NCBI RefSeq assembly: GCF_002741105.1
Contig: NZ_NIQU01000008.1
Span: 124,001-188,000, forward strand
Reading direction: 5' to 3'
From: Pseudomonas sediminis
GTDB lineage: Bacteria > Pseudomonadota > Gammaproteobacteria > Pseudomonadales > Pseudomonadaceae
Length of the DNA: 64,000 bases
Within the stretch, counting starts at the first letter, position 1. Each line of letters starts with the position of its first letter. The notes under the pieces are model-generated. The model ran no database searches. It had not been told where the DNA came from and worked only from the letters and a program-made list of their open reading frames with translations. Position numbers and translations under genes: made by a program. This document shows positions 43,857 to 58,737 of this stretch, one piece after another.

Positions 43857-45971
43857 TCAGAAGTCGAAATCGACCTTGGCCCAAAGGGTACGACCCGGCT
43901 CGTCGATACGGGTCTCGGCCGGGAAGCCAAAGCCCGCGTCGCCAGCCAGGTTGAGGTGCTCGGCGTAGTTCTTGTCGAGCAGGTTATCCACACCAGCGCT
44001 GAGCTTGACCTGCTTGCTCACGCGGTAGGCACCGTTGAGCGAGAGCACGCCGAAACCGGCGCTGTCACCGAAGTCCTGCCCCACCACGTTGCCACGCCCT
44101 TCGGCGATGCGCCCCTGGCCATCGACCACACGCCACAGGGCGCCGACGCTCCAGTCGTCGCGCTGGTAGGTCAGGCCCAGTCGCGCTTCCAGTGGCGGCA
44201 TCTGCGGCAGCGCTTCACCGTCACTGCTGTTCTTGCCCCAGGCATAGGCCAGGGTCGCGTCGGCCTTCCAGTTGGAATCGAATGCATAGGCCACGCCCAG
44301 CTCGCCACCCATGATGCGCGCGTCGACGTTGTCGGCCTGCGTGCTCATGCCACGGTAGTCGAACAGGATGTAGTCGCGGATCTGCCCGACGTAAGCCGAG
44401 GCCCAGGCCTGCAGCTTGTCGTCCTGGTACTGGATGCCGATATCGAGCTGAGTGGTCTTCTCCGGCTTGATGCCATCGAAGGCGTTGTCCGCGCCGACTG
44501 GGCCATTGAGACCGGCGGAGAACAGCTCCCAGTAATCGGGGAAACGCTGCACGTGGCCGATGCCGGCATAGACGGTGGTCGGCGAGCCGGACAGGTCGTG
44601 CTCGTAGCGCACGAAACCGCTGGGCAAGGTATCGGCACGGGTCTCGCCCGCCGTCGGGTTGGGCGTGGTCATGCCCATCATGTCGCTGAAGTTCTGCCGG
44701 TAGTCCTTGGCCGAAGCGCGATCCAGGCGTGCGCCGGAGATCAGTCGATCACCCTCGGCCAGGCGCCAGGTGGCTTCGGCGAACACGCCGTAGTTGTGCA
44801 TCAGCGCGTCCTTGTCCCAGGGGAAGCGATCAGCGTCGACATAGGGCATGCCCATCATGCCGCCGCTGGAGCTGCGCTGGCGGTGTTCGCTGCGCTGCGC
44901 ATCGACGCCGGTGATCAGCTCGACGTCGTCCCACTTCCAGGTCGCGGCCAGGCGTGCACCGAGGGTGCGACGGTCGACCTGCGCCGCCATCGGCCCGGCC
45001 ATCATGCTGCTTGGGTCCGGCACGCGCAGACGGAAGTTGTCCATGATGTGGTCGGCGTAGTTGTAGTAGACCTTGGCCTCGACCTTATCCAGCACGCCAC
45101 CGAGGTTGCTGCGTTCGATACGCAGGCCGAGGCTTTCGCGCTTGAACTGGGTGCCGTCCATGCCACGGCCGCCATAACGCGCTTCGCCATCGCCACGACC
45201 GGCGCTGAGTTCGATCAGGGTATCGGCATCCGGCGTCCAGCCCAGGGCCACGTCGCCGTTCCACTTGTCCCAGCGCGAGGCGATGGTGTCGCCGTCACCG
45301 TTGTCGTAATCGTCCGACTGCGAGCGGTTGCCCATCACCCGCAGGTAGCCCTGCTCGCTGCCCACGGCGCCATCGATCAAGCGGTCGAAGCGACCATTGG
45401 AGCCCGCCAGCACACTGGCATGCAGGCGCGCGCCCAGTTCGCCGAAATGTTCCGGCTCGCGGTCGAAACGCACCACCCCAGCCGAAGCGCCCGGCCCCCA
45501 GATCACGGTTTGCGGACCCTTGGTGACGGTCAGTAAATCGAAGGTTTCCGGCGCGATGTAAGAACTGGGCGCGTCCATCCGACCGGGGCAGGCGCCGATC
45601 ATCTGCCCGCCATCGGTGAGCAGCAGCAGGCGCGAGCCAAACAGGCCGCGCAATACTGGATCGCTGTTACTGCCACCGCTGCGAATCGCGGAGAAACCGG
45701 GAATGGTCTTGAGGTAGTCGGCCGCATCGCTGGCCGGCACCGGCTGGCGTGGGTCCTTGGGGTCGGCCACCACGGTCAGCGGCGAGCTTTGCTGGATTGC
45801 CGTGATCACCGTGGGCGGCAGTTCGTGCACATGCTCCTCGGCAGCCTGCAAGGCCGTAATGGAACACAGGCCGCAGGCGACGGCGAAGGCATGGCGCCAG
45901 CGCAGGTTGCGGGTGGACAGGGCGAAACGGGACGAAGCGGAGCCGTGGCCCCGGATAGCGAAAACGGACAT
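43857..45971 (-). CDS. oprC: TonB-dependent copper receptor OprC/NosA
   Basis: 704 residues. Plug domain about 60-180, then a 22-strand barrel ending in VDFDF. The plug has the Cys128-x3-Met132 site (GACPGRMD) that binds copper in OprC (family knowledge). Methionine-rich loops (SMMAGPMAA, GMMGMP, MMGMTTP) add further copper ligands. OprC-type receptors import copper across the outer membrane, feeding for example NosZ. Start 45971 with AGG at seven bases; the long N-terminus includes a signal segment ending near 43. A DUF2946 gene ends 71 bases upstream. Confidence 0.92.
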   Translation of the reverse strand: MSVFAIRGHGSASSRFALSTRNLRWRHAFAVACGLCSITALQAAEEHVHELPPTVITAIQQSSPLTVVADPKDPRQPVPASDAADYLKTIPGFSAIRSGGSNSDPVLRGLFGSRLLLLTDGGQMIGACPGRMDAPSSYIAPETFDLLTVTKGPQTVIWGPGASAGVVRFDREPEHFGELGARLHASVLAGSNGRFDRLIDGAVGSEQGYLRVMGNRSQSDDYDNGDGDTIASRWDKWNGDVALGWTPDADTLIELSAGRGDGEARYGGRGMDGTQFKRESLGLRIERSNLGGVLDKVEAKVYYNYADHIMDNFRLRVPDPSSMMAGPMAAQVDRRTLGARLAATWKWDDVELITGVDAQRSEHRQRSSSGGMMGMPYVDADRFPWDKDALMHNYGVFAEATWRLAEGDRLISGARLDRASAKDYRQNFSDMMGMTTPNPTAGETRADTLPSGFVRYEHDLSGSPTTVYAGIGHVQRFPDYWELFSAGLNGPVGADNAFDGIKPEKTTQLDIGIQYQDDKLQAWASAYVGQIRDYILFDYRGMSTQADNVDARIMGGELGVAYAFDSNWKADATLAYAWGKNSSDGEALPQMPPLEARLGLTYQRDDWSVGALWRVVDGQGRIAEGRGNVVGQDFGDSAGFGVLSLNGAYRVSKQVKLSAGVDNLLDKNYAEHLNLAGDAGFGFPAETRIDEPGRTLWAKVDFDF

Positions 45972-46042
45972 GCGAATACCTGAAAGTTGGCAGCTTTTAT
46001 TAGGTGTCGGGCTCGGCTGAGCCCTGGCTGGACGACCAGACT

Positions 46043-46426
46043 TCAGGTACGCGGAGAGGCTCTGGGGTTGAGCGATGGCCACTGAAAGCGGCTACGTGAT
46101 GCGGGGCTGACGCGCGATAGCGGACGTATCGTTTCGCTGGCCAGCAGGCCGAACAACCCGAAGAAGGCTGCCAGGATGATGGCGCTGAAGCTGGAGCTCA
46201 TGGCGCAACCGCCACTGCCGAACAACCCCAACGGCACGACACCGGAGCCGTCGAGATCGGCCCCGGCGCCGAAATTGCCGTCGAAGGAGCAGTACTGCGC
46301 ATCCAGCCCACTGAGCTGCATCCCCGCCATCTGCCCATGACTGATCGCGCAGGCGAGCGCTGCGAACAGGACACTGAAATACAGCATCCAGGCAATCAGT
46401 GGTCGGTGCTGGCGGGATGACTTCAT
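46043..46426 (-). CDS. DUF2946 protein 1, CruR-like leader of oprC
   Basis: 127 residues. An N-terminal hydrophobic helix (about 11-28) leads to CAISHGQMAGMQLSGLD (Cys26, His30, Met33, Met36), then Cys46, Cys74 and a second helix (about 80-95). It ends SLNPRASPRT. The NPRASP motif (120-125) resembles the C-terminal RAPP arrest motif of Bordetella CruR, a DUF2946 uORF product that senses copper (family knowledge). Unlike CruR it has no CXXC. No strong SD precedes the ATG. It ends 71 bases before oprC, so I infer leader-peptide control of oprC. It is a close paralogue of the DUF2946 protein at 58351-58737. Confidence 0.75.
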   Translation of the reverse strand: MKSSRQHRPLIAWMLYFSVLFAALACAISHGQMAGMQLSGLDAQYCSFDGNFGAGADLDGSGVVPLGLFGSGGCAMSSSFSAIILAAFFGLFGLLASETIRPLSRVSPASRSRFQWPSLNPRASPRT

Positions 46427-46502: not shown

Positions 46503-46793
46503 TTACTTGGCCATCCAGGTAATCACGGCCTGGTAGTCCTCAGCCGAGCAATCCATGCACAGGCCGCGCGGTGGCATGGCGTTGAAGCCCTCAGTGACAT
46601 GCTTGACCAGCGTCTCCATGCCCTGTGCCTTACGCGCTTCCCAAGCCGCGGCATCGCCTTTCTTCGGCGCGGTGGGTAGCTGGCCGTTGTGGCACATGCC
46701 ACAGGAACGGTTGAACACGGCCTCAGGGTCCTGCGCGGCATTGGCCGCAGCTGCCAGGCCGAGGGTAAAGGCAAGCAGAGCGAGTTTGTTCAT
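46503..46793 (-). CDS. Periplasmic c5-like cytochrome c
   Basis: 96 residues: signal peptide (LALLAFTLGLAAAANAA, cut near 20), heme site CGMCH (31-35) and distal Met73 in FNAMPPRG. A further CMDC (79-82) near the C-terminus is typical of cytochrome c5-like proteins, where it forms a disulfide. It can carry electrons in the periplasm. It lies upstream of DUF2946-1/oprC with a 76-base gap, so co-transcription is likely. Confidence 0.85.
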   Translation of the reverse strand: MNKLALLAFTLGLAAAANAAQDPEAVFNRSCGMCHNGQLPTAPKKGDAAAWEARKAQGMETLVKHVTEGFNAMPPRGLCMDCSAEDYQAVITWMAK

Positions 46794-47081: not shown

Positions 47082-47630
47082 TCATTCCGGTATGCGCAAC
47101 CAACGGCGGAAACCGCCCACGCCAGAGCGGCTCAACGGTGACCAGGCAAAGTCGTAACGGGCCGGCGGCAGCACCTGAATGTCTTCGTCCTGGGCGGCAT
47201 CCTGGTTCTTCCAATCGACCAATGTCAGCGGGCGCGCACTGCAGGCGAGCAGGATGCCCTGAGCGGAACTGGCATCGCTGGTCACCCAGCGCGCCGCAGC
47301 AGCCGAGAGCAGGCTCTCCACTTGCTCGGAGGTGACCCGCGGCGCGTATTCCGAGAGCAGCAGCCAGCGGCAAACGCTGATATGAAAAGTCCAGTCCTGC
47401 GCGGGCTGGCGACGATAGGCCCAGATCATGAAGCTGCGAAACAGCTCCACGCCTTCAGGCGGGTCGAGTTTGAGCAGCGACGGGCACAGGTCGTACAGCA
47501 GGTGCCAATACGGCAGCAGCTTGGCATCCAGCGCGATGAACGAGCGCGCGTTACTCGGGTAGTCGGGAAACAAGGTTTCGCCGATGGCACGGCGCACCGG
47601 CGGCATCGCCTTGAGTCGATATGAACGCAT
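47082..47630 (-). CDS. Unknown protein downstream of a DUF2946 gene
   Basis: 182 residues with no family that I recognise. There is no signal peptide. It has helix-rich segments with aromatic residues (YWHLLYDLCPSLLKL, ELFRSFMIWAYRRQP, HISVCRWLLLSEYA), Cys residues at several sites and a basic C-terminus (FRRWLRIPE). I start at ATG 47630, which has GGAG at nine bases; the frame is open to 47675. It lies 75 bases after a DUF2946 gene with RAPP, the position normally held by the copper-regulated target. It may therefore be a cytosolic member of the copper response (inference). Confidence 0.6.
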   Translation of the reverse strand: MRSYRLKAMPPVRRAIGETLFPDYPSNARSFIALDAKLLPYWHLLYDLCPSLLKLDPPEGVELFRSFMIWAYRRQPAQDWTFHISVCRWLLLSEYAPRVTSEQVESLLSAAAARWVTSDASSAQGILLACSARPLTLVDWKNQDAAQDEDIQVLPPARYDFAWSPLSRSGVGGFRRWLRIPE

Positions 47631-47705
47631 GGGTTCATGCTCCTGATCCGGTTCAGCCTCGGCACTGCGAGGCACAAGAAGCTCGGCGAGCTTCGTTCGC
47701 GGTGA

Positions 47706-48077
47706 TCAGGCAATAACAGGTGGCGCTCGTGACTGCGATGCGGGGAAACGCAATTGCAGTATGGGCTGACGCCGCAATAGCGGCGGTACAGCCTGTACCA
47801 CGGAGATGTCGAAACGGCCCCAGTCCTGGCAGCCCAGCGCAGGGCTGTTGATGAGCAGTGAGCAGTAGGCGCAGGCATCCAGCGAAAAACGCTGCGGTGC
47901 ATCGACCGGCGCGCTGCTGCTCTTCTCGTTGCCATCGTGGCAGGCCAGCTCGGCCAGCCACGACCAATCGCTGCTGTCGGCGCGCAGTTGCGAGAACAGT
48001 GGCGCAAAGGCGATCAGGACGAATGCCAGCAGCCCGAGCTGGGCGCCAAGCAGTCGCCTGCCGGCGCTCATCCGCAT
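47706..48077 (-). CDS. DUF2946 protein 2, canonical CruR-like (CXXC and RAPP)
   Basis: About 123 residues. A hydrophobic N-terminal helix (LLGAQLGLLAFVLIAFAPLF), Cys46-His47, the metal-type motif CAYC (69-72) within DACAYCSLL, and the C-terminal RAPP (117-120) three residues before the stop. These are the two elements that in Bordetella CruR sense copper and arrest translation (family knowledge). The start is uncertain: ATG 48077, ATG 48071 or GTG 48089, none with a clear SD. It follows TBDR 2 by 42 bases and precedes the unknown 182-residue gene by 75 bases. Confidence 0.78.
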   Translation of the reverse strand: MRMSAGRRLLGAQLGLLAFVLIAFAPLFSQLRADSSDWSWLAELACHDGNEKSSSAPVDAPQRFSLDACAYCSLLINSPALGCQDWGRFDISVVQAVPPLLRRQPILQLRFPASQSRAPPVIA

Positions 48078-48119
48078 CAGCGCCAGCACCGCAGCAGCAG
48101 GCTCATGCCAGAAACTCCG

Positions 48120-50171
48120 TTACCACTGAAACTGGACGCCGGCATACAGCGCGCGTCCGGTGCCCGGGTTGTACAGTTCCGAGGCCTCGGTTGCGCTGCC
48201 GGCGATGGCGACGTTGGCGATATAGCGGGTATCGGCCAGGTTGCGCCCCTCCAGGTAGCCCGACCAACCACCGCCGGCCTCGTAGCCGAGCTTGAAGTTG
48301 ATCAGCGTGTAGCGGTCGGTGGTCATCTGGTTGGCGTTGTCGGCGTAGTAGCCGTCCGGCACCCACTCGATGTTCGGTCCGGCGTAGACGCCGCTCGGAT
48401 GCTTGTAGAGCAGCTCGGCACGCACGTGATGCTTCGGCACACCGGGCAGCTCGTTGTTGCCGTAACGCTCGTCGTTATCGAAGAAGAAGTCGCTGTAGGT
48501 ATAGGCCGTGTTGAACCACAGGCTGTCGCCCTGGCTCAGGGACGACCTGAGCAGGGCCAGGCCAAAGCCAAGCTCGAGGCCCTGATGCACGGTGCTGTCG
48601 GCGTTCACCACGCTGCACGGGCTCCAGGGCGCCGTAGTCAGGCATTGCAGTTCGTTGTCGATCTCGGCGCGGTAGAGAGCGATATCCCAGTTGAAATCCT
48701 CGCGCTGGCCACGGCTGCCGACCTCGTAGGTGGTAGCGGTCTGCGCCTGGACCGAGGTGCTGGCTGGCGAGGCGAAGCTGTTGGCGTCATAGGTCGGCAC
48801 CTCTGCACTTCGCGAGACATTGGCGAACACCTGCCAACTGGCATCGACATCCCACAGCACACCAATCTTGGGGCTGAAGTGGTCGTAGCTGCGGCGGCCG
48901 GACTGGTCGCCATCGCTCAGGAAGCGGTCGCGACGATCACGCACCGAATGCTGAAACTGCGCGCCGGCGATCAACGCCAGATCCGAGCGGATGAAGAAGG
49001 AGTTCTCCACATAGGCCGAAGCGTTCTTCGACTTGTCGATGTTGGAGGATGCCAGGTCGCCCTTCACCGCATTGCCCAGATTGAGGTACTGCTTGTTGTC
49101 GATCTTGCCGTTGTGCAGGTTCACACCGGCGATCAGCCGGTTGCGGTAGTCACCGATCATGCCTTCGTCGGTCACGCGCATGAAGCCGCCGTAGTCATAG
49201 ACGTTGTAGTCCAGCCATTGGTAGATCGGGTGCATCACGTGGCGCTGCACGCCGAACACGCCCACATCGAGGAGGGTATCGTCGAAACGAAAGGTGGTCT
49301 TGTTGGCGACTCGCACCGCGTCGATGTTGCGCTGCTGGTCGAGGCGCTCGAACTCGGCACTGGCGCGGCGCGGCGACTTCAAGGCCGCAGCCTTGTCCAC
49401 CTCACCCGGTAGGCGCTGCTTGATCTCGCTGGCACTGAGGTAGAAGCGCGTTTCGACGTCATCCGAAAACCGGTAGCCGACATTGCCGCTCATACGGTTC
49501 TGGCGCCCGTCGCTATGGTCGCGATAACCATCGAAGCGCTGCACCGAGCCGGTCACGAAATAGTCGAACGGCCCGCTGACACCACCGGTGCTGGCCTGGG
49601 ACTTGCGATAGCCGAAGCTGCCAGCATCGATACGTGCGGCGAATGGCGAGGCATCGTGGCCGGTTGGCGTGACAAAATTGATCGCTCCACCCAGAGCGTT
49701 GGCCCCATAGCGCAGAGCATTGGCGCCCTTGTACACCTCGACGTGGCGATAGGCTGTAGGGTCAATCTCGAACAGGTCGACCAAGCCATCGGAGGTGTTG
49801 ATCGGAATCCCGTCCATGTACACGTTGATGCCGCGATTGCCATAGTTGCGCGACAGGCCGGAGCCGCGAATCGACACGCGGGCGTCATCGCCAAAACGTG
49901 GTTGAGCGAACACCCCCGGCACCCAGCCGAGCACATCCTTGATCGTCTGCGCCGGCCCGTTCTTGAACGCAGCATCCTCGACCACCGCAACCGAGCCGGG
50001 CGTACGCTGGATAGCGTGCCTGGCTTGCTCCGTATTGTCGGCCGTCAGCGCGCGCCCTTCGGTTGCGTAGGTGGTGGTGTCCGGCAGCACGACACCCTCG
50101 GACTCCCCATTGGCCCAGGCCAGATTGCAGGCACCGACGAGCAGTACCAGCGCAGTATTTGTTGTTTTCAT
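48120..50171 (-). CDS. TonB-dependent outer-membrane receptor (TBDR 2)
   Basis: 683 residues: signal peptide (ALVLLVGACNLAWA, cut near 21), plug domain (about 50-165; SVAVVEDAAFKNGPAQTIKD, SIRGSGLSRNYGNRGINVYM, NALGGAINFVTPTG) and barrel to the terminal VQFQW. FecA-like in plan. It is clearly paralogous to the receptor at 56186-58231. The ligand is unknown; the context of PCu(A)C and DUF2946 genes suggests copper or a copper chelate rather than iron. A DUF2946 gene ends 68 bases upstream. GGAAG lies nine bases before the ATG. Confidence 0.87.
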   Translation of the reverse strand: MKTTNTALVLLVGACNLAWANGESEGVVLPDTTTYATEGRALTADNTEQARHAIQRTPGSVAVVEDAAFKNGPAQTIKDVLGWVPGVFAQPRFGDDARVSIRGSGLSRNYGNRGINVYMDGIPINTSDGLVDLFEIDPTAYRHVEVYKGANALRYGANALGGAINFVTPTGHDASPFAARIDAGSFGYRKSQASTGGVSGPFDYFVTGSVQRFDGYRDHSDGRQNRMSGNVGYRFSDDVETRFYLSASEIKQRLPGEVDKAAALKSPRRASAEFERLDQQRNIDAVRVANKTTFRFDDTLLDVGVFGVQRHVMHPIYQWLDYNVYDYGGFMRVTDEGMIGDYRNRLIAGVNLHNGKIDNKQYLNLGNAVKGDLASSNIDKSKNASAYVENSFFIRSDLALIAGAQFQHSVRDRRDRFLSDGDQSGRRSYDHFSPKIGVLWDVDASWQVFANVSRSAEVPTYDANSFASPASTSVQAQTATTYEVGSRGQREDFNWDIALYRAEIDNELQCLTTAPWSPCSVVNADSTVHQGLELGFGLALLRSSLSQGDSLWFNTAYTYSDFFFDNDERYGNNELPGVPKHHVRAELLYKHPSGVYAGPNIEWVPDGYYADNANQMTTDRYTLINFKLGYEAGGGWSGYLEGRNLADTRYIANVAIAGSATEASELYNPGTGRALYAGVQFQW

Positions 50172-50239
50172 CAGAAGCGACTTCCACGTAATGGACTACG
50201 TATGCATGCCACGCAGCGCCAAGGCGCGGGCCGGCATGA

Positions 50240-50686
50240 TCAAGCGATTGGAACGCTGGCGAGGAAGTCGTGGGGAGAGGCGCGAGGATTGAGCGCCGAA
50301 CGCACTTGACGCGGCGGCGCTTGCGCCCGGTTGCCGAATGCGCTGGATGGCATCGCAACGGCCGGCAGATACTCCTGCCCCCAGGCGAAGGTATTCAGTG
50401 GCGCGGCGAGTGAGCCCGACGAACACAGTGGGCAACCCAGCTGCATGAACATCGTCTGCGTCGGGCTCTTGTCGCTTGTGGTGCCAACTGATGTATCAGC
50501 GTCGGCACTGCAAAAAATGCTGTCGAGCCCACTCAGGCTCAGGCCACTCATCTGGCCATGGTGCAGGCCGCAGGCGAACAGCCCCAACAGGATGCTCAGC
50601 AGCAGCATCCTGTTGGCAAAGGCCGGTACGAACGCCGCTACCCCAAGACGGGCAGCCAGTGTTCGCTCACCTGCGGTGGCGATCAT
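50240..50686 (-). CDS. DUF2946 protein 3, CruR-like leader of TBDR 2
   Basis: 148 residues. Hydrophobic helix (about 26-40), ACGLHHGQMSGLSLSGLD (Cys39, His42, His43, Met46), Cys59 and a CXXC motif CPLC (85-88). It ends ALNPRASPHDFLASVPIA, so NPRASP lies at 133-138, ten residues before the stop. It therefore combines CXXC with the HGQM site and the R-A-S-P motif. Its ATG overlaps the stop of the PCu(A)C gene (ATGA), so translation is coupled to it. It lies 68 bases before TBDR 2 and probably controls it. Confidence 0.75.
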   Translation of the reverse strand: MIATAGERTLAARLGVAAFVPAFANRMLLLSILLGLFACGLHHGQMSGLSLSGLDSIFCSADADTSVGTTSDKSPTQTMFMQLGCPLCSSGSLAAPLNTFAWGQEYLPAVAMPSSAFGNRAQAPPRQVRSALNPRASPHDFLASVPIA

Positions 50687-51174
50687 CAGTGCTTGTGTTC
50701 GCCGTGATCGGCACCATGGTCATGACCTGCCGGAGCGTCCTTCTGCACTGCGACTTCGACCTCGACCTTGCCGGCCTTTTCGAAAGTCAGGGTCAGCGGG
50801 AAGCGCTCACCGTCCTTGGCCTGCTGCTTCAGGTTGAACAGCATGACGTGATAGCCCATGGGCTCGAACTTCACCTCGCCACCGGCGGGGATGGCCACGT
50901 CCTGCACCTGCTGCATTTTCATCACGCCATCGGCATGCACGTGCTCGTGCAGTTCAGCCTTGCCGGCCACCGGGGTGCTGGCGCTGAGCAGACGATCCGC
51001 TTCGCTGCCCTTGTTGTGGACGACGAAGTAGGCCGCGGCAGTCGGTGCCACCGGCGGCATCTCGCGCGACCACGGGTGGTCGATATGCAGTTGGCCTGCC
51101 TCGTACTCGTGGGCCTGCACCAACAGCGTCGGCAGCAGCAGGGTCAGGCCGAGCAGGGTTTTCTTCAGGGTCAT
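50686..51174 (-). CDS. PCu(A)C periplasmic copper chaperone
   Basis: 162 residues: signal peptide (TLLGLTLLLPTLLVQAH, cut near 21), then the cupredoxin-like domain. The copper site H-x10-M-x21-H-x-M is complete: His76, Met87, His109, Met111. The C-terminal tail HDHGADHGEHKH adds histidines that could bind Cu(II). Such proteins carry Cu(I) in the periplasm, for example to cytochrome oxidase. AAGGAGG lies eight bases before the ATG. It is 32 bases downstream of TBDR 3 and overlaps DUF2946-3. Confidence 0.92.
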   Translation of the reverse strand: MTLKKTLLGLTLLLPTLLVQAHEYEAGQLHIDHPWSREMPPVAPTAAAYFVVHNKGSEADRLLSASTPVAGKAELHEHVHADGVMKMQQVQDVAIPAGGEVKFEPMGYHVMLFNLKQQAKDGERFPLTLTFEKAGKVEVEVAVQKDAPAGHDHGADHGEHKH

Positions 51175-51206
51175 GGGTGTTGCCTCCTTGTGGGAAAACG
51201 AAAACA

Positions 51207-53237
51207 TCAGAAATCCAGGGTCAATCCGGCATACAGGGCGCGGCCGTCACCGGGCGCATGCAGCGAATCCTGAGCACCGTCCGGGTCGTACCACACGTAC
51301 TCGTAATAGCGGTTGGTGACGTTCTTCATCTGCACGTCCACGCTCACCGTTTCGCTGACACGATACTCCGCGCCAAGATTGAGCAAGGTGTAACCGCCAT
51401 ATTGGCCGGTGCTGTTGGTACGCTCCAGATAGTAGTCGCTCTGGCCATTGACCCAGGCGCTGAGCTTGAGCTTGTCGGTGGCCTGGTAGTCAGCCCCCAG
51501 GGCGTAGAGATGATGCGGTACGTGGTCCATCTCCTTGCCCTTGCTGGCCGGCAGGTTGGGGCTCGCCGTGAGTATCTCGGAGAACTGCCGCGAGTAGGAC
51601 AGCCAGATACGCGCCTGATCGTCCGGATACAGGTTGAGTTGCACATCGTGGCCACGGCGCAGGGTTTCACCGACGTTCTCCGAATCGCCTACAGCATCAT
51701 TGAGCTTGCGCTGCACTTCGTCGGTGGCGTGCTGCTCCCAGTACGCCACGCGGCCATCGAGCCAGACCACCGGGTTGAACTTGATACCGGTCTCCCAGCC
51801 TTCGTTTATCGAAGGCTTGAGGTCATCGGCCTGACCAGCCAGCTTGTAGGCGCCGGAGCCGACACCGACCTGGAAGGTGCGCCCCCAGTTGGCGTAGAAA
51901 CTGGCTTCCTTCCAGGGGGAATAGACCACGCTGAATTTCGGCTGGCGAATGTTGCCGTAGTCGTTGGCACGGGCCCGCTCGCCAGTCAGTTCGTTGCGAT
52001 AGCCCCCCTCGATCTGATCGACGCGGTAGGCAGGAATAAACTTGAGGCTCTCCCAAGGCTGAATAACGGCCTGCACATAGACTCCCTTGGTGGTGAGGTC
52101 GAAGGCCTGGTCGCGGATCTTCGCCGTACGCACCTGCTCAGTGGTGCGATAGCGCTCGCTGACCACCTCCTGACGCTGGATATCCGCCCCGCCTTCCAGG
52201 GCGAAGTCATATAGGCCTCGCACATCCGGCCGCCAGGTCAGGCTGCTGATGGCGCCATACTGGTCTTCGTTGTTGAAGCGCTCCTGCTGAGACGAGGTGA
52301 TCCAGTATTTGGTCCAGCGGCGATCCTCAAAGCGGTTGTAGTAGACCTTGCTCGACCAGGCCAGATCCTCGGCGACATCAGTGTCCAGATGCAGGCTGAG
52401 CTGGTCCATGCTGCGCTCGCCTTCATCGAAGGCATTATTGGCGTAGGACTGGCGCGGATCGTCACGGGCATCGTCACGGGTCAGGTAGCCGGCCTCCTTG
52501 GCATCGGCCTCGTAATGCCGGGCAATCAGCCCGGCACGCCAGCCGGCATCGGCGGTGTAGAACCACTTGCCGGCGAAGCTCTGCCGTTCGGCGTCGGCGT
52601 GATCGCGATAGCCGCCGCTCTTTTGGTAAGCGACGAAGTAGTTCTGCGACCAGTTGCTCGTCTCGATGCCTTTGACCAGTTGCAGCTCCTGGGTATCGAA
52701 GCTGCCGCTGCGCATGCGCAGCTTGCCCTCGTTGCCGCCGATGCGGGTATTGATGCTGGCGTTGCCGGCGATGTTATGCAGGCCATAACGTGGATCGTTG
52801 GTGCCGCGCACCACTTCGATGTCTTCGATATCCAGCGGGAAGACCATGTCGATAAATGGCATGTTGCCGTCATTGGTGTTGCTCGGAATGCCGTCGATCA
52901 ACAGCTTCACGGCATTCACCTCGCCTTCGCCGTTGAAGCCGCGGAACGACAGCTTGCCGGAGGTGGTGCCCTGGTTGAACTGAGTGAGCATCACGCCCGG
53001 CACACGGCTGAACAGCTCCCAGCTGTATTGCACGGGTTGTTTTTCCAGCACGTCGCTGCCGACGTAATCCACCGAACTGAGGATGTTGTGGCTGGAAAGC
53101 GGCCCTTTTTCTTCGCCGGTAACGGTCACGGTGCCCAATGCTAGTGTGCTGTCGGCCAGGGCTGGCATTGCCTGCAGAGCAAGCGCCCATAAAACGAACT
53201 GAGCAGTGCCGGCCAGCGGCTTGAAAGTGAATCGCAT
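51207..53237 (-). CDS. TonB-dependent outer-membrane receptor (TBDR 3)
   Basis: 676 residues: signal peptide (FVLWALALQAMPALA, cut near 28), plug (about 45-160; ELFSRVPGVMLTQFNQGTTS, DIEDIEVVRGTNDPRYGLHN) and barrel ending in LTLDF. It belongs to the large iron/metal complex receptor class, but the ligand is unknown. It is less like the other three receptors. Start at 53237 (MRFTFK, GGAA at nine bases); the long open frame up to 53582 overlaps the PepSY gene and has no signal peptide at its start. It lies 98 bases downstream of PepSY A and upstream of the PCu(A)C gene. It is the only receptor here not headed by a DUF2946 gene. Confidence 0.87.
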   Translation of the reverse strand: MRFTFKPLAGTAQFVLWALALQAMPALADSTLALGTVTVTGEEKGPLSSHNILSSVDYVGSDVLEKQPVQYSWELFSRVPGVMLTQFNQGTTSGKLSFRGFNGEGEVNAVKLLIDGIPSNTNDGNMPFIDMVFPLDIEDIEVVRGTNDPRYGLHNIAGNASINTRIGGNEGKLRMRSGSFDTQELQLVKGIETSNWSQNYFVAYQKSGGYRDHADAERQSFAGKWFYTADAGWRAGLIARHYEADAKEAGYLTRDDARDDPRQSYANNAFDEGERSMDQLSLHLDTDVAEDLAWSSKVYYNRFEDRRWTKYWITSSQQERFNNEDQYGAISSLTWRPDVRGLYDFALEGGADIQRQEVVSERYRTTEQVRTAKIRDQAFDLTTKGVYVQAVIQPWESLKFIPAYRVDQIEGGYRNELTGERARANDYGNIRQPKFSVVYSPWKEASFYANWGRTFQVGVGSGAYKLAGQADDLKPSINEGWETGIKFNPVVWLDGRVAYWEQHATDEVQRKLNDAVGDSENVGETLRRGHDVQLNLYPDDQARIWLSYSRQFSEILTASPNLPASKGKEMDHVPHHLYALGADYQATDKLKLSAWVNGQSDYYLERTNSTGQYGGYTLLNLGAEYRVSETVSVDVQMKNVTNRYYEYVWYDPDGAQDSLHAPGDGRALYAGLTLDF

Positions 53238-53335: not shown

Positions 53336-54706
53336 TCAGGCAGACGGGGTACTGGGCGCGAATTGCCGCCGCAACAGGCCAACCAGCGCGTCCAGCCCCC
53401 AGACCAGCAGTAGCGAAGCGCCGACCAGCGGGAAGATCACGCCGAGCACGATCATCACGCCGATGGCGGTCTTCCAGCGCGGCAGGTCGTGACGCAGCGG
53501 GGGTACTCCGAAGCGCCCGGCCGGGCGGCGTTTCCACCACAGCACCAGGCCACTGACGGAGCTGAAGATGATCAGCAGGCACACCGCCGCCATCAGCAAC
53601 TGGTTGGCCAGGCCGAACAACTTGCCTTCGTGCAGCATCACTCCGGTTTCCACGGTTTTCGCCACCGGGCCGTAGTCCTTCCAGCGCACGTCGGCGAGCA
53701 CCGCGCCGCTGTATTGGTCGAAGTGCAGCGTGGCGTCGTTACGCGGGTCGTCAGCGAACAACGCGACGGTGTAAACGCCCTGCTCGCCTTTCGGCAGGCT
53801 GATGCTGTAGCCGGGCTGGACACCGCGCTCGGCGGCGCTGTCGACCACATGCTGCAGCAGGCTGGCGGAGGCAGCTGCGGGCTCATGCCCGGCATGGCCT
53901 TGATGCGCGGCATGCGGGTCGGAAGCCGGCAACGGCGTGACTTCCACCGCCCAGGCCACGGTTTGCTGACTGCTGCTGTTGAGGCTACCGGTCAGTTGCC
54001 CGGATTTGGGCACGTCATCCCACATCGCGGCGGGAAAGTGATTCCAGGCACCGGCGAACTGCGCACCCCAGTAGCCCGTCCAGGTCATGCCGGTAAGCAG
54101 CATGAACAGCAGCAATGCGCTGCCCCAGAAACCGGTCACCGCATGCAGGTCGCGCCACCACAGGCGCCCACGCGCGCTCAGGCGTGGCCACAGCACACCC
54201 GCCCCGCCGCTGCCGCGCGGCCACCACAGGTACAGGCCGGACACCACCAGCACGATGCCCCAGCCCGCGGCCAGTTCGATCAGCCGGTCACCAACGGTGC
54301 CGATCAGCAGATCACCGTGCAGCTTGCGTACTACCGCCTGCAGATTCCACAAGGCGTCCTGGGTGCCGAGCAGGCTGCCGCTGTAAGGATCGACGAACAG
54401 GTTCAGCTCCTGGCCGTCCTGATTGATCACGAACTGCGCGCTGCGATCCTGCGCAGCGGGCGGCAGGTATTTACTGACCACTGCCTGCGGATAGACCTCG
54501 CGGACAATGGCCAGTTGTTGATCGGCACTCAGGCGCTGCTCGGCGACCGGCACCTGCATCAGGTCGGCGTACATCCAGGTGTCGAGCTGCGGTTTGAACA
54601 GGTAGATAATCCCGGTGACCGACAGCAGGATCATGAACGGGATGACGAACAGCCCGGCATAGAAGTGCCAGCGCCAAGCCAGGTTGTAGAACGAAACTTT
54701 ATTCAT
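53336..54706 (-). CDS. PepSY-associated TM-helix protein A (putative metal reductase)
   Basis: 456 residues. Hydrophobic segments at about 18-36, 143-162, 190-215, 370-392 and 420-450. The pattern fits the PepSY_TM family, whose members include siderophore/metal reductases of the inner membrane. A conserved His is in RWHFYAGLFVIPFMILLSVTG, HGDLLIG and LHAVTGFWG. A histidine-rich insert (DPHAAHQGHAGHEP, about 263-276) lies in a periplasmic loop and could bind copper. Start 54706 has GGAG at seven bases. It follows PepSY B by 43 bases in the same operon. Confidence 0.83.
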   Translation of the reverse strand: MNKVSFYNLAWRWHFYAGLFVIPFMILLSVTGIIYLFKPQLDTWMYADLMQVPVAEQRLSADQQLAIVREVYPQAVVSKYLPPAAQDRSAQFVINQDGQELNLFVDPYSGSLLGTQDALWNLQAVVRKLHGDLLIGTVGDRLIELAAGWGIVLVVSGLYLWWPRGSGGAGVLWPRLSARGRLWWRDLHAVTGFWGSALLLFMLLTGMTWTGYWGAQFAGAWNHFPAAMWDDVPKSGQLTGSLNSSSQQTVAWAVEVTPLPASDPHAAHQGHAGHEPAAASASLLQHVVDSAAERGVQPGYSISLPKGEQGVYTVALFADDPRNDATLHFDQYSGAVLADVRWKDYGPVAKTVETGVMLHEGKLFGLANQLLMAAVCLLIIFSSVSGLVLWWKRRPAGRFGVPPLRHDLPRWKTAIGVMIVLGVIFPLVGASLLLVWGLDALVGLLRRQFAPSTPSA

Positions 54707-54749
54707 ATTCGGCTCCAGGCACAGCCACACAGGCCGTAGTAGAGAGATT

Positions 54750-56198
54750 TCATCGGTGCTGTCCTCGACGTAGCAGGCTCAGGCCCACCAGCGCCAACAG
54801 CACATGCGCTAATGCGACGATGCCCAGCAGCAGGTGCTTGTAGCCATTGCCCAGGCCTGCGAGAAATTCCCACTTGTGCAGGTAGGCAAAGGTCCAGCCT
54901 TCCGTGCGGTCAGCATCCTGCACGCGGCTGGCCAGGGCACCGTCCAGCGGGTCGATAAACAGCGCGGTGTTGTGCGCATCGGCATAGCTGGCCTTGAACA
55001 CAGGCAAGCGCTTGAAGACGAAGCCGTATTCGTGGTCAAAGCTGTGCTGCAGCGTGAGCGTCTGCGCCTCACCCAACCCCAGAGACTTGGCGTAATGATC
55101 GAGACGCTGCTGGGCATAACGACGTGGCGTGTCATTGCCCAGTTCACGGCCCTGAACATCCAGGTAATGCAGACTTGGCATGCTGGCGAACTGCTGCCCC
55201 TGGGCGCGCCAGATCGGCTTGCCGTCGAGTTCAAGCAGGCTGAGCATGTACAGCTCTTCACCGGCCAGCAGCCAGTCGGCCGCCGGTGCCGTATCCAACT
55301 CGGCCACGTTAAAGCTCGGCACAAAGGGCGCTGGCCAGGGCTGCGCGCCTTGCTTGTGCAACAGGTGCCAGGCACCGCTGCTGGCAAAGCTCAACGTCGC
55401 TAAAGCGAGCCCCAGCCCCCACCAGCCATGCAGCCGCCGGTTGAAGGTACGGGCACGCCGACGGGCGATAAACAGCGCCACACCAAACAGCGTCGCCGAG
55501 ACAATCGAGGCCAGCAGTACCAGCATCAGCACCGGGCGCAACGGGCCCGCCGCATCCAGCCAGCGAAAGCTGTGCATCGTCTGGAAGAACGCGCTGAACC
55601 AAGCCTTGCGCTGATCCACCAGGGTGCCGAGGCGGTCATGGAACAGGTCGACATACAGGCGTAACTGGTCATCACGCTGGGTGTCGACCCGCGCCACCGG
55701 CAGCAGGCGGTTGATAAAGGCGTATTCACTGGTAAAGCGCTCGATGCTGCCGGCATAGGCCAGCGGCTCGTCGCGGCCCAGGTAGTGCCGCGCCAGGCTT
55801 TCGGCATGAGCGCCGGCCAGCTCGACTTCCAGACCACTGCGTGCATGCCAGTAACGCGGCTGTAGCTCGCCAGCCAGACGCACCTGGTAATACGGCTCAC
55901 CGGCCAGCACCAACAGACGCAAGCCCTGCACCTGGGCAACTCCCGCCGCGCCGAGCACCTGCGCGGGACTGCTCAGGTTATCCAGCGGCAACACCTGCTG
56001 CGGTGTGGCCATGGTTTGCGGACGCGGCTGCAGGTAGCCCATCAGCGGGTGCAGCATGCCGCTGCCCGCCCAGCTGAAGATGCCCAGGCAGGCCAGCAGC
56101 GCCAGGCGCTTGTGCCACGGCATCAACCGCAGCAGGCGCTGGCGCCAGGTCAGGCGCGGCAGCTGTTGTGCTTGCAGGGCCGCCGTCAAAGCCTCCAC
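54750..56198 (-). CDS. PepSY-domain membrane protein B
   Basis: 482 residues. Hydrophobic helices at about 30-50, 220-245, 258-278 and 450-475, with large periplasmic parts between. LYVDLFHDRLGTLVDQRKAW and DHYAKSLGL are PepSY-like segments, and FHSFRW-type His residues (TMHSFRWLD) fit heme or metal contacts. The start is GTG at 56198, overlapping the end of TBDR 4 by 13 bases, so translation is coupled; a TTG three codons later is an alternative. A partner of PepSY A, probably in reduction of the metal brought in by TBDR 4 (inference). Confidence 0.75.
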   Translation of the reverse strand: MEALTAALQAQQLPRLTWRQRLLRLMPWHKRLALLACLGIFSWAGSGMLHPLMGYLQPRPQTMATPQQVLPLDNLSSPAQVLGAAGVAQVQGLRLLVLAGEPYYQVRLAGELQPRYWHARSGLEVELAGAHAESLARHYLGRDEPLAYAGSIERFTSEYAFINRLLPVARVDTQRDDQLRLYVDLFHDRLGTLVDQRKAWFSAFFQTMHSFRWLDAAGPLRPVLMLVLLASIVSATLFGVALFIARRRARTFNRRLHGWWGLGLALATLSFASSGAWHLLHKQGAQPWPAPFVPSFNVAELDTAPAADWLLAGEELYMLSLLELDGKPIWRAQGQQFASMPSLHYLDVQGRELGNDTPRRYAQQRLDHYAKSLGLGEAQTLTLQHSFDHEYGFVFKRLPVFKASYADAHNTALFIDPLDGALASRVQDADRTEGWTFAYLHKWEFLAGLGNGYKHLLLGIVALAHVLLALVGLSLLRRGQHR

Positions 56199-58231
56199 TC
56201 CAGGCCGACATACAGGCTCCGGCCATCGCCCGGCATGAACAGCGCAGCATCCTGGCCATTGGCATTGGCGACGACGCCGGTGGTGGCGATGTAGGTCTTG
56301 TCGGAAAGGTTGCGCCCCTCGACAAAGAAGCCCAGCCCCTCACGCGGGCGGTAACCGCCCTTCATGCCCCAAATGGCATAGGACTCGGCATACAACGACT
56401 CGGCATGGTCGGCTGCGTAGTGCACCGGCACCCATTCCAGGGTCGGGCCGACATACCAGCCGCCCTGCTGCCAGAGCACCTCCCCCTTGAGGAACTGACT
56501 CGGTACGCCGGCAATACGGTTGTTCCCGTAGGCGGGATCGTTGTCGAAGCGGAAATCGTTGAGTAGGTACTGCCCACGCAGGACCAGATTGCCCACCTGC
56601 CAGGCGCCGCCAAGTTCGATGCCCTGATGCACGGTGCGATCGGCGTTGGTGGTGACCACCTGAGTCGGGTTGAGCGGATTGACATACCCCAGCAGCTCAT
56701 CGCGGATCTCGCTGCGGTAGACCGCCAGGTCCAGATCCAGATTACCGCGCGTGATGCGCATACCGGCTTCAAGCGTGGTGGCTTTCTGAGCCACGTTCTC
56801 GGTGACGATAGCGCCGCCTGTCAGCTCGCTGAAGGTTGGCGGCTCGTAGCTCTGGCTGAGATTGGTGAAGAACTGCACACCTTCGCCTAGGTCATGGCGC
56901 AGGCCTATCCGGCCGATCCGCGCGCTGTAGCTTTTGGTGAAGGAGTCATCGCGAAAGCCGGTGGGGATGCCGACGAAGTTGAAGCTGCTTTTTAGCTTGT
57001 CATCGACATCGCGCTCGCTGTGCAGCCAGGTCAGGCCACCAATCAATGCCCAGTCCTCGGCCAGCGGGACTTCCAGCTCGGTGAAAGCGTTGAGACTGCG
57101 CGCGGTCTGAACCTGGCGGTCTACCAGATTGCCGCGCTTGCCCGAGACGTTGATGTAGTTCTTCGCCTGGTTGCGTCCCTGCAGTGCCTCGACACCACCG
57201 TTCCAGCGCCAGCCATCCGCGTTCTGCCATTTGTGGGTCAGGCGCACGCCGACATCTTCACTATCGACTTCCAGCACCTGAAAGATCGGGTGCCACAGTG
57301 ATTTCTCGCTGTAGAAGCTCGACAGTTCCAGGCTATGGCCACCGTCCAGTTGCAGGGTGGTGATATTGCCGATGCGGTTGAAGGTGAAGTCGCGCTTGTT
57401 ATCGCCGGTCACTGTGCTCAGCGCAGCCTGCTCAGGGTTACGCCGTAGCTGCGCTTTGGTCAGGCTGCCGGGGATTTCCGAATCGGTTTCCACGTGGCTG
57501 ATATAGAAGCGGGTCGCCAAGCGTTCGTTTATGCGTCCGCCGATATTGGCGAAATAGCGCTGGTTTTCCTGGCGCGAGTGGTCGCGGAAACCGTCCTGGG
57601 AATAATCGGAAAAACTCAGGTAGGCATCCCAATCACCAAAGTCTTCAGCCACCGCGCCGAAGATGCGCTGGTAGTCGAAGCTACCGGCCTCGGTGCGCAG
57701 CTGCACCTTGGGCGCGGTCTTGCCGGTGGGCGTGACGAAGTTGATCGCCCCGCCCAGGTTGGCAGCGCCATAGCGCCAGGCGTTGGCGCCGCGCATGACC
57801 TCAATATGGTCCAGAGCAATCGGTTCGATGGATTGAAAGTCACCACTGCCATCCGCCAGGTTCAGTGGCGCGCCGTCCTGCATCAGCAGGATGCCGCGCT
57901 GGTGGAAGGTGCGCTGCAGGCCCGAACCGCGGATCGACAGACGTGATTCCTCGGCGCCGGAGCGCGACTGGATATACACCCCGGTGGCCTGACTCAGGGC
58001 ATCCTGTGGAGAGCTGGCGCGCCCGGTCTTGTAGGTTTCGGCATCGACGATGCTGGCCCCGCCCGGAATGCGCGCGAACTCTGCACGCTTCTCGGCGATG
58101 CTCGGCGCAGTGGCGTCGCCCTGCTGGCGGCCAACAATGGTGCTGTCTTCCAGTTCGATTTGTGCAGCAAAGGCGGAGCTTGCCCCACTGACAGCGACGG
58201 CCAGCAGGCTGAATACAAATAGTGAACGCAT
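56186..58231 (-). CDS. TonB-dependent outer-membrane receptor (TBDR 4)
   Basis: 681 residues: signal peptide (LFVFSLLAVAVSGASSAFA, cut near 23), plug (about 45-165; IPGGASIVDAETYK, SIRGSGLQRTFHQRGILLM, NLGGAINFVTPTGKT) and barrel ending in VGLEWRL. FecA-like and paralogous to TBDR 2. The operon DUF2946-TBDR-PepSY-PepSY resembles the Bordetella CruR-BfrG operon, which also has a receptor and a PepSY protein (from memory). Start ATG 58231 with GGGGAAG; a TTG at 58243 is unlikely. It lies 119 bases after DUF2946-4. Confidence 0.87.
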   Translation of the reverse strand: MRSLFVFSLLAVAVSGASSAFAAQIELEDSTIVGRQQGDATAPSIAEKRAEFARIPGGASIVDAETYKTGRASSPQDALSQATGVYIQSRSGAEESRLSIRGSGLQRTFHQRGILLMQDGAPLNLADGSGDFQSIEPIALDHIEVMRGANAWRYGAANLGGAINFVTPTGKTAPKVQLRTEAGSFDYQRIFGAVAEDFGDWDAYLSFSDYSQDGFRDHSRQENQRYFANIGGRINERLATRFYISHVETDSEIPGSLTKAQLRRNPEQAALSTVTGDNKRDFTFNRIGNITTLQLDGGHSLELSSFYSEKSLWHPIFQVLEVDSEDVGVRLTHKWQNADGWRWNGGVEALQGRNQAKNYINVSGKRGNLVDRQVQTARSLNAFTELEVPLAEDWALIGGLTWLHSERDVDDKLKSSFNFVGIPTGFRDDSFTKSYSARIGRIGLRHDLGEGVQFFTNLSQSYEPPTFSELTGGAIVTENVAQKATTLEAGMRITRGNLDLDLAVYRSEIRDELLGYVNPLNPTQVVTTNADRTVHQGIELGGAWQVGNLVLRGQYLLNDFRFDNDPAYGNNRIAGVPSQFLKGEVLWQQGGWYVGPTLEWVPVHYAADHAESLYAESYAIWGMKGGYRPREGLGFFVEGRNLSDKTYIATTGVVANANGQDAALFMPGDGRSLYVGLEWRL

Positions 58232-58350
58232 GGACTTCCCCAAATCCGGCTGTCGGGTGCGTGCTATAGATCAGCCATGGACGCACCGACGAGCGCAGTT
58301 TTTATCTGACGAACAATTACGTGCGCGGCCTCAGTGCCGCGTGAGTGAGG

Positions 58351-58737
58351 TCAGACAGATACAGGGGAAGCGCGGGGGTTGGCCGAGGGCCATAAATAAC
58401 GGACAGTTCGCGGGACGAACTGCAAGACAGGGGTGGGGGCACGACTGGGAGCCAGCAAACCCAGCAGCCCGAAGAACGCCGCCAGGATGATGGCGCTGAA
58501 CAGGCTGGCCAAGGCGCAGTTGGCGCCAGTGGCCGGGTTCGGTGCGACGATGCCGGAGCCGTTGAGGTCGGCGCCCGCGCCGAAGTTACCGTCGAACGAG
58601 CAGTACTGGCCGTCCAGACCGCTGAGTTGCATGCCGGCCATCTGGCCGTGACTGATCGCGCAGACGAACGCACTGAACAGGATGCTGAAGTACAGCACCC
58701 AGGCGGTCAGTGAGCGGTCTTTGCGGGCCAGTTTCAT
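58351..58737 (-). CDS. DUF2946 protein 4, CruR-like leader of TBDR 4
   Basis: 128 residues, a close paralogue of DUF2946-1: both have Cys26, His30, Met33, Met36, Cys46 and Cys74 at the same positions, and the GNFGAGADLxGSG stretch. It ends WPSANPRASPVSV, with NPRASP at 120-125 as in protein 1. No CXXC. No strong SD before the ATG at 58737. It heads the operon with TBDR 4 and both PepSY genes. As the first gene of the whole minus-strand cluster, it probably receives the main promoter. Confidence 0.75.
   Translation of the reverse strand: MKLARKDRSLTAWVLYFSILFSAFVCAISHGQMAGMQLSGLDGQYCSFDGNFGAGADLNGSGIVAPNPATGANCALASLFSAIILAAFFGLLGLLAPSRAPTPVLQFVPRTVRYLWPSANPRASPVSV

Follow-up and report, generated by a model that had tools for sequence, protein, structure and literature searches.

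D1 and D4, two of four DUF2946 leader genes in the window (the whole 64,000-nucleotide stretch of Pseudomonas sediminis DNA analysed here), are probably copper-responsive leaders of the CruR type, in which a ribosome arrested on the leader would unmask the Shine-Dalgarno (SD) sequence of the next gene. The more general result of the analysis is that an anti-SD lies at a specific position, under the stalled ribosome, in CruR leaders across the Pseudomonadota; the more specific one is that loss of the second cysteine of the CXXC motif is linked to a second hydrophobic segment.

The DUF2946 leaders and their next genes

All four leaders pass the gathering cut-off of Pfam PF11162 (DUF2946), 23.7 bits, with scores of 40.4 (D1), 41.8 (D2), 34.7 (D3) and 52.4 (D4) bits, and a whole-genome search found no further DUF2946 genes. 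As an earlier note on this DNA had described, D1 and D4 contain Cys26, His30, Met33, Met36, Cys46 and Cys74 (their cysteines being exactly these three) and no CXXC, while D3 has both the HGQM site and CXXC (CPLC) and D2 has CXXC only (CAYC). Position 36 in D3 is Leu instead of Met. D1 and D4 are paralogues that are 62% identical, so the positions common to just these two are little evidence of a site. The AlphaFold model of D4 is of low confidence; it shows a pair of helices, and its loops are disordered. Comparison of the D4 sequence with the PDB gave chance-level matches only.

Table 1 Features of the four leaders and of the genes around them (positions are those of the window).
Feature	Position	Strand	Description
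D1	46043..46426	minus	DUF2946/CruR-type leader ORF, HGQM class; CAMS replaces CXXC; C-terminal NPRASPRT; 5' of oprC
D1 Cys26 codon	46349..46351	minus	Defining residue of the 162-member class
D1 His30 codon	46337..46339	minus	Defining residue of the 162-member class
D1 Cys46 codon	46289..46291	minus	Conserved residue
D1 degenerate CXXC	46196..46207	minus	CAMS, residues 74-77; the first Cys persists as Cys74
D1 second hydrophobic segment	46139..46192	minus	Residues 79-96, SFSAIILAAFFGLFGLLA; hydropathy scan
D1 arrest core	46052..46063	minus	RASP codons, conserved core
D1 anti-SD	46042..46048	minus	ACCTGAA; overlaps the stop codon; pairs with the oprC SD
oprC SD	45978..45984	minus	TTCAGGT; complement of the D1 anti-SD
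oprC	43857..45971	minus	TonB-dependent copper receptor after D1; ATG at 45971; TIGR01778, 944 bits; OprC structures
D2	47706..48089	minus	Canonical-type leader, CAYC and RAPP
D2 anti-SD	47704..47710	minus	CCTGATC; pairs with SD GATCAGG, 47642-47648
MbnC-like protein	47082..47630	minus	After D2; TIGR04061, plus MbnC below cut-off
D3	50240..50686	minus	HGQM-class leader, CPLC and RASP, without second hydrophobic segment
D3 anti-SD	50263..50269	minus	GACTTCC; codons straight after RASP; pairs with SD GGAAGTC, 50179-50185
TonB-dependent receptor	48120..50171	minus	After D3
PCu(A)C copper chaperone gene	50686..51207	minus	Same run as D4
Two PepSY_TM genes	53336..56198	minus	After the D4 receptor
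TonB-dependent receptor	56186..58231	minus	After D4; ATG at 58231
SD of D4-downstream receptor	58235..58241	minus	GGGGAAG
D4	58351..58737	minus	HGQM-class leader; CALA replaces CXXC; C-terminal NPRASPVSV
D4 degenerate CXXC	58507..58518	minus	CALA, residues 74-77
D4 second hydrophobic segment	58450..58503	minus	Residues 79-96; hydropathy; predicted helix 79-98, low confidence
D4 arrest core	58363..58374	minus	RASP codons; include the anti-SD
D4 anti-SD	58364-58370	minus	CTTCCCC; inside the RASP codons; pairs with SD GGGGAAG

For comparison, a set of 285 DUF2946 proteins was assembled from loci gathered by genus, order, family and genome-contig searches. The 162 of these that have both Cys26 and His30 are referred to as the HG class; Cys74 was not a selection criterion.

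The run headed by D4 comprises genes for a TonB-dependent receptor (TBDT), two PepSY_TM proteins, a second TBDT and PCu(A)C. The receptors after D3 and D4 are putatively CrtA-like, and CrtA-type receptors are copper-responsive in Pseudomonas aeruginosa and Bordetella pertussis (PMC12914433). A small cytochrome c gene (Cytochrome_CBB3 domain, 46503-46793, minus strand) lies immediately upstream of D1. The recognisable next genes of the HG class encode OprC, CrtA-like TBDT, PepSY_TM, PCuAC, MbnC-like or SCO1 proteins; the expectation in the earlier note that a receptor gene always follows was therefore too narrow. Where the next gene was readable (clusters were named by comparison with the window genes and by inspection, and some small ones are unreadable out-of-frame ORFs), it was in every case a copper gene, and the metal-unrelated neighbours that had been named as evidence against a metal sensor were not among them. 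An MbnC-like gene follows about 19 leaders of the set. A zinc sensor, which His-rich loops and the DUF2946 genes of a Zur study had brought to mind, was dropped because the readable next genes are all copper genes.

Cys74 and the degenerate CXXC motif

Cys74 is present in all 162 HG proteins, Cys46 in 150/162, Met33 in 119/162 and Met36 in 34/162, position 36 being mostly Leu where Met is absent. Among the residues outside the class definition, all of them previously described as invariant, Cys74 alone holds throughout. Both synonymous codons are in use across the class at Cys26, His30 and Cys74, which indicates that conservation acts on the residues and not on the DNA.

In the alignment, Cys74 coincides with the first cysteine of CXXC, CAMS (D1) and CALA (D4) standing opposite CPLC, CSLC or CALC in relatives. 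The distance from Cys74 to the arrest arginine is 48 residues in D1 and D4 (class range 45-51; medians of 48-50 in members with CXXC), and the corresponding distance in B. pertussis CruR, Cys90 to Arg139, is 49 residues (PMC9426467). Judged by this alignment and spacing, D1 and D4 have lost the second cysteine of CXXC only, and Cys74 is not an additional cysteine. The lone cysteine of the earlier note is thus real, and CXXC is indeed missing, but it is the remnant of a degraded CXXC. The second cysteine is missing in 74/162 HG proteins. In three leaders with a RASP core (L243:268-678, L243:1345-1749 and L203:1155-1568) a CCC run replaces CXXC.

The earlier note had explained these proteins as a separate sensor clade in which a Cys/His/Met set around HGQM replaces CXXC as a Cu(I) site. 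The copper gene context agrees with this explanation, and so does the frequency of Met33, which is Met in 66/74 of the proteins without the second cysteine against 53/88 of those that keep CXXC, although independent pairs, a low-power test, gave no association between Met33 and second-cysteine loss. Against it, position 36 is mostly Leu, HGQM and CXXC occur together in many HG members, and in several lineages both have been lost: HGQA is found with CPMG in L156, L157, L161 and L190, HGQS with CALS in L210, and HEQV or HGEV in L141 and L131, which have His-rich loops and neither Cys46 nor the second cysteine. HGQM is therefore not retained whenever CXXC is lost. L235-L242 also lack Cys46 and the second cysteine and have a His- and Met-rich loop; most of them keep HGQM. 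The idea of a different sensor on the same leader design stands in so far as the design is common and some members lack CXXC, but HGQM, coexisting with CXXC as it does, is not a simple replacement for it.

Phylogeny and distribution

The proteins without the second cysteine do not form a separate clade. A quick tree was made from 156 rows and 131 columns with the trait columns excluded; many of its forks are unresolved, but a well-supported branch splits the HG proteins, together with a nested CWCC group, from canonical CGYC/RAPP proteins. Second-cysteine loss required about 10 changes on this tree, at least 3 of them on well-supported (starred) branches, and thus happened several times within one Pseudomonadaceae clade. 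Taken together, this and the points above make a sensor in which HGQM has taken over from CXXC very unlikely. The CWCC group, nested in the HG clade, has lost Cys26 and His30; in L018:1489-2916, L029, L005 and similar loci of other Pseudomonas, two leaders are close neighbours, a CWCC/RASP leader preceding PCuAC and then a CGYC/RAPP leader preceding an OprC-like receptor.

Matches to the class profile were found in 90/148 genomes of the family Pseudomonadaceae and in 2/369 genomes of the class sample, both of them Pseudomonadaceae. In the phylum sample, strong matches occurred in Pseudomonadaceae only and weaker ones elsewhere (E 1e-6 to 4e-5); the DUF2946 proteins examined in the genomes giving these weak matches have CXXC and RAPP, or are without the core arginine. 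On these profile matches, the subfamily whose first hydrophobic segment carries C-x3-H towards its end is real and confined to the Pseudomonadaceae in the samples.

The second hydrophobic segment

A segment was scored as present when the best 18-mer directly after Cys74 had a Kyte-Doolittle mean of at least 1.6. Such a transmembrane-grade segment occurs in 146/161 scorable HG proteins against 7/123 other proteins of the set. It is present in all 74 proteins without the second cysteine, and the segment-free HG proteins (15/161, including D3) retain CXXC in 15/15 cases. It is therefore the segment, not HGQM, that goes with the loss of CXXC, although the traits are clustered on the tree, so that the link represents few independent events and the independent-pair test has low power. 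The HG class is better defined by Cys26, His30 and Cys74, the second hydrophobic segment and a core of NPRASP or NPRAP followed by the stop codon.

Outside the Pseudomonadaceae, such a segment accompanies CXXC in 20/58 DUF2946 proteins, 19 of which lack C-x3-H; a two-helix leader is thus not unique to the HG class. In L262, L266, L270-L273, L280, L298 and L301, all non-Pseudomonadaceae, a strong second hydrophobic segment comes after CGYC, while Cys26 and His30 are absent. These leaders possibly represent an independent two-helix design.

Measured from the residue that would occupy the P site at the presumed stall, the N end of the segment is 46 residues away (IQR 45-48) and Cys74 is at 50. 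Force profiles (PMC7886326) show a helix beginning to pull once some 45 residues separate its N end from the peptidyl transferase centre. A segment at helix-pulling distance in all members without the second cysteine would also suit leaders that do not sense metal, being either constitutive or sensors of membrane insertion, and a two-cysteine mutant of B. pertussis CruR does retain expression while losing copper control (PMC9426467). We consider this unlikely for the CXXC-less members: Cys74 is fixed in all of them despite synonymous codon change, His-rich loops are found where Cys46 is missing, and the next genes are still copper genes.

Arrest core

D1, D3 and D4 have NPRASP near the C terminus and not RAPP, which is found in D2; the consensus of the HG class is WPxxNPRA[S/P]P. 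In about 30 HG members the stop codon comes straight after NPRAP, or after HPQAP in L235, L236 and L239-L242. Leaders that end exactly at NPRAP or HPQAP, with Pro and not Ser as the third core residue, are seen in L235-L242, L219-L225 and L185-L202; from their sequences, a ribosome stalled there would have the stop codon in its A site. The 58 non-Pseudomonadaceae proteins with a recognised core all have RAPP, RGPP or QGPP. Four non-Pseudomonadaceae DUF2946 proteins (L275, L299, L302 and L317) have a SAAPP end and no arrest arginine, and in these arrest may be lost or different.

During in vitro arrest of CruR, codons 3 and 4 of RAPP are in the P and A sites (PMC12992588). Upstream ORFs that cluster with SecM include RASP, and those that cluster with ApcA include RAP followed by the stop codon (PMC10987492). 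By analogy, we infer that RASP would also cause arrest; the published finding that the third core residue of ApdA and ApdP tolerates little change counts against this.

Pairing of the leader with the SD of the next gene

In each of D1-D4, the SD of the next gene finds its complement in codons that lie at the arrest core or shortly beyond it (Table 1). Raw energies of duplexes between leader tail and SD were dropped: GC-rich coding sequence confounds them, and so do the RASP and RAPP codons, which resemble an anti-SD. Given this resemblance, an SD-swap permutation was used, which sets the pairing of a leader with its own SD against its pairing with SDs taken from other leaders. Some of the automatic start codons used are wrong, which should dilute the signal. 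Among 80 thinned leaders, the own SD was favoured at the P-site codon (z -5.8) and at +6 nt (z -7.4), with flanking values of z -2.5 in the -6 window and z -1.9 in the +12 window and no preference in the remaining windows. All four groups were significant separately (p 0.0026 for HG proteins without CXXC), and ordinary gene pairs of the same DNA reached z -2.4 at most. The result was replicated in a separate set of 52 non-Pseudomonadaceae leaders, with z -8.1 at the same position and z -2.7 in one other window (-36).

Neither a Shine-Dalgarno sequence nor its masking is mentioned in the main text of the CruR publication (PMC9426467). The output there is Rho-dependent termination, demonstrated for cruR-bfrG with bicyclomycin and by termination in vitro, and the same output could operate in the window leaders with anti-SD pairing as a secondary feature; both outputs could coexist. 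The short intergenic regions (71 nt after D1; group medians of 47-87 nt) and the position-specific anti-SD, replicated in a second set, argue against Rho as the main output, which we regard as rather unlikely.

Proposed mechanism

Under SD unmasking by the arrested ribosome, which we favour, the leader would be translated ahead of the copper-uptake genes, its N-terminal hydrophobic segment probably entering the membrane co-translationally, and the ribosome would stall on WPxxNPRASP, the core close to the C-terminal end. The stalled ribosome would cover the anti-SD and leave the SD of the next gene exposed, allowing synthesis of the copper receptor. Binding of metal by the nascent chain would relieve the arrest; the SD would then be masked again (or Rho would terminate transcription, as in B. 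pertussis) and uptake would stop. That copper lowers uptake would be expected by analogy with CruR.

It is possible, though doubtful, that HG-class leaders hold a metal site between two helices. Helix 1 would contribute Cys26 and His30, close to its outer end; further ligands would come from Cys46 or a His-rich loop and from Cys74, just ahead of helix 2. With the ribosome stalled, some 46 residues would separate the start of the second helix from the P site, and metal-assisted formation of a hairpin could give the releasing pull. We infer the identity of the metal, its ligands, the membrane topology and the pulling; sensing may be cytoplasmic, periplasmic or within the translocon.

Relation to known leaders

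Among the closest published systems is CruR of B. pertussis (Roy et al. 2022, PMC9426467), also a PF11162 protein with an N-terminal hydrophobic segment, encoded by the first gene before copper genes, with an R-A-x-P core at the C terminus and the first cysteine of CXXC at equal spacing from the core. CruR differs in having CXXC, RAPP, a 162-nt intergenic region and Rho termination; D1 and D4 have no second cysteine; they possess Cys26 and His30, a second hydrophobic segment and RASP, and their presumed stall site lies over an anti-SD. The N-terminal 40 residues of CruR can be replaced, and a semiconserved cysteine changed, without effect (PMC9426467), and an N-terminal site with Cys26 and His30 would differ from CruR in this respect.

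CutF of Rhodobacter capsulatus (PMC9973294) is likewise an exported DUF2946-like leader, whose translation opens a stem-loop that masks the next SD. Unlike the window leaders it has CxxxC, its end is rich in proline, and the gene downstream of CutF is promoted by copper, whereas the receptors in the window should, following CruR, be made at low copper. SecM and other RAPP-type arrest peptides (PMC10987492, PMC12992588) share the R-A-x-P core, to which the sequence comparison with the window leaders is confined, the opening of an SD-masking stem-loop by the stalled ribosome, and release by pulling. SecM, however, monitors Sec export upstream of secA, whereas leaders of the D1/D4 type precede copper genes and carry Cys and His.

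More speculatively, and with rather low confidence, the ligand set of arrest-peptide copper sensors might turn over while arrest and SD unmasking stay fixed, and the Pseudomonadaceae branch might sense metal by building its site between two transmembrane helices of the nascent chain, with insertion of helix 2 as the releasing pull.

In the published work on CruR, sensing is by CXXC, arrest by RAPP and output by Rho (PMC9426467). The Pseudomonadaceae leaders change both CXXC (to a single cysteine) and RAPP (to RASP or RAP followed by the stop codon), and searches based on CXXC with RAPP or RGPP will miss many copper leaders. The anti-SD under the stalled ribosome gives the DUF2946 family an output step that is simple and can be tested, and control of OprC is directly testable.
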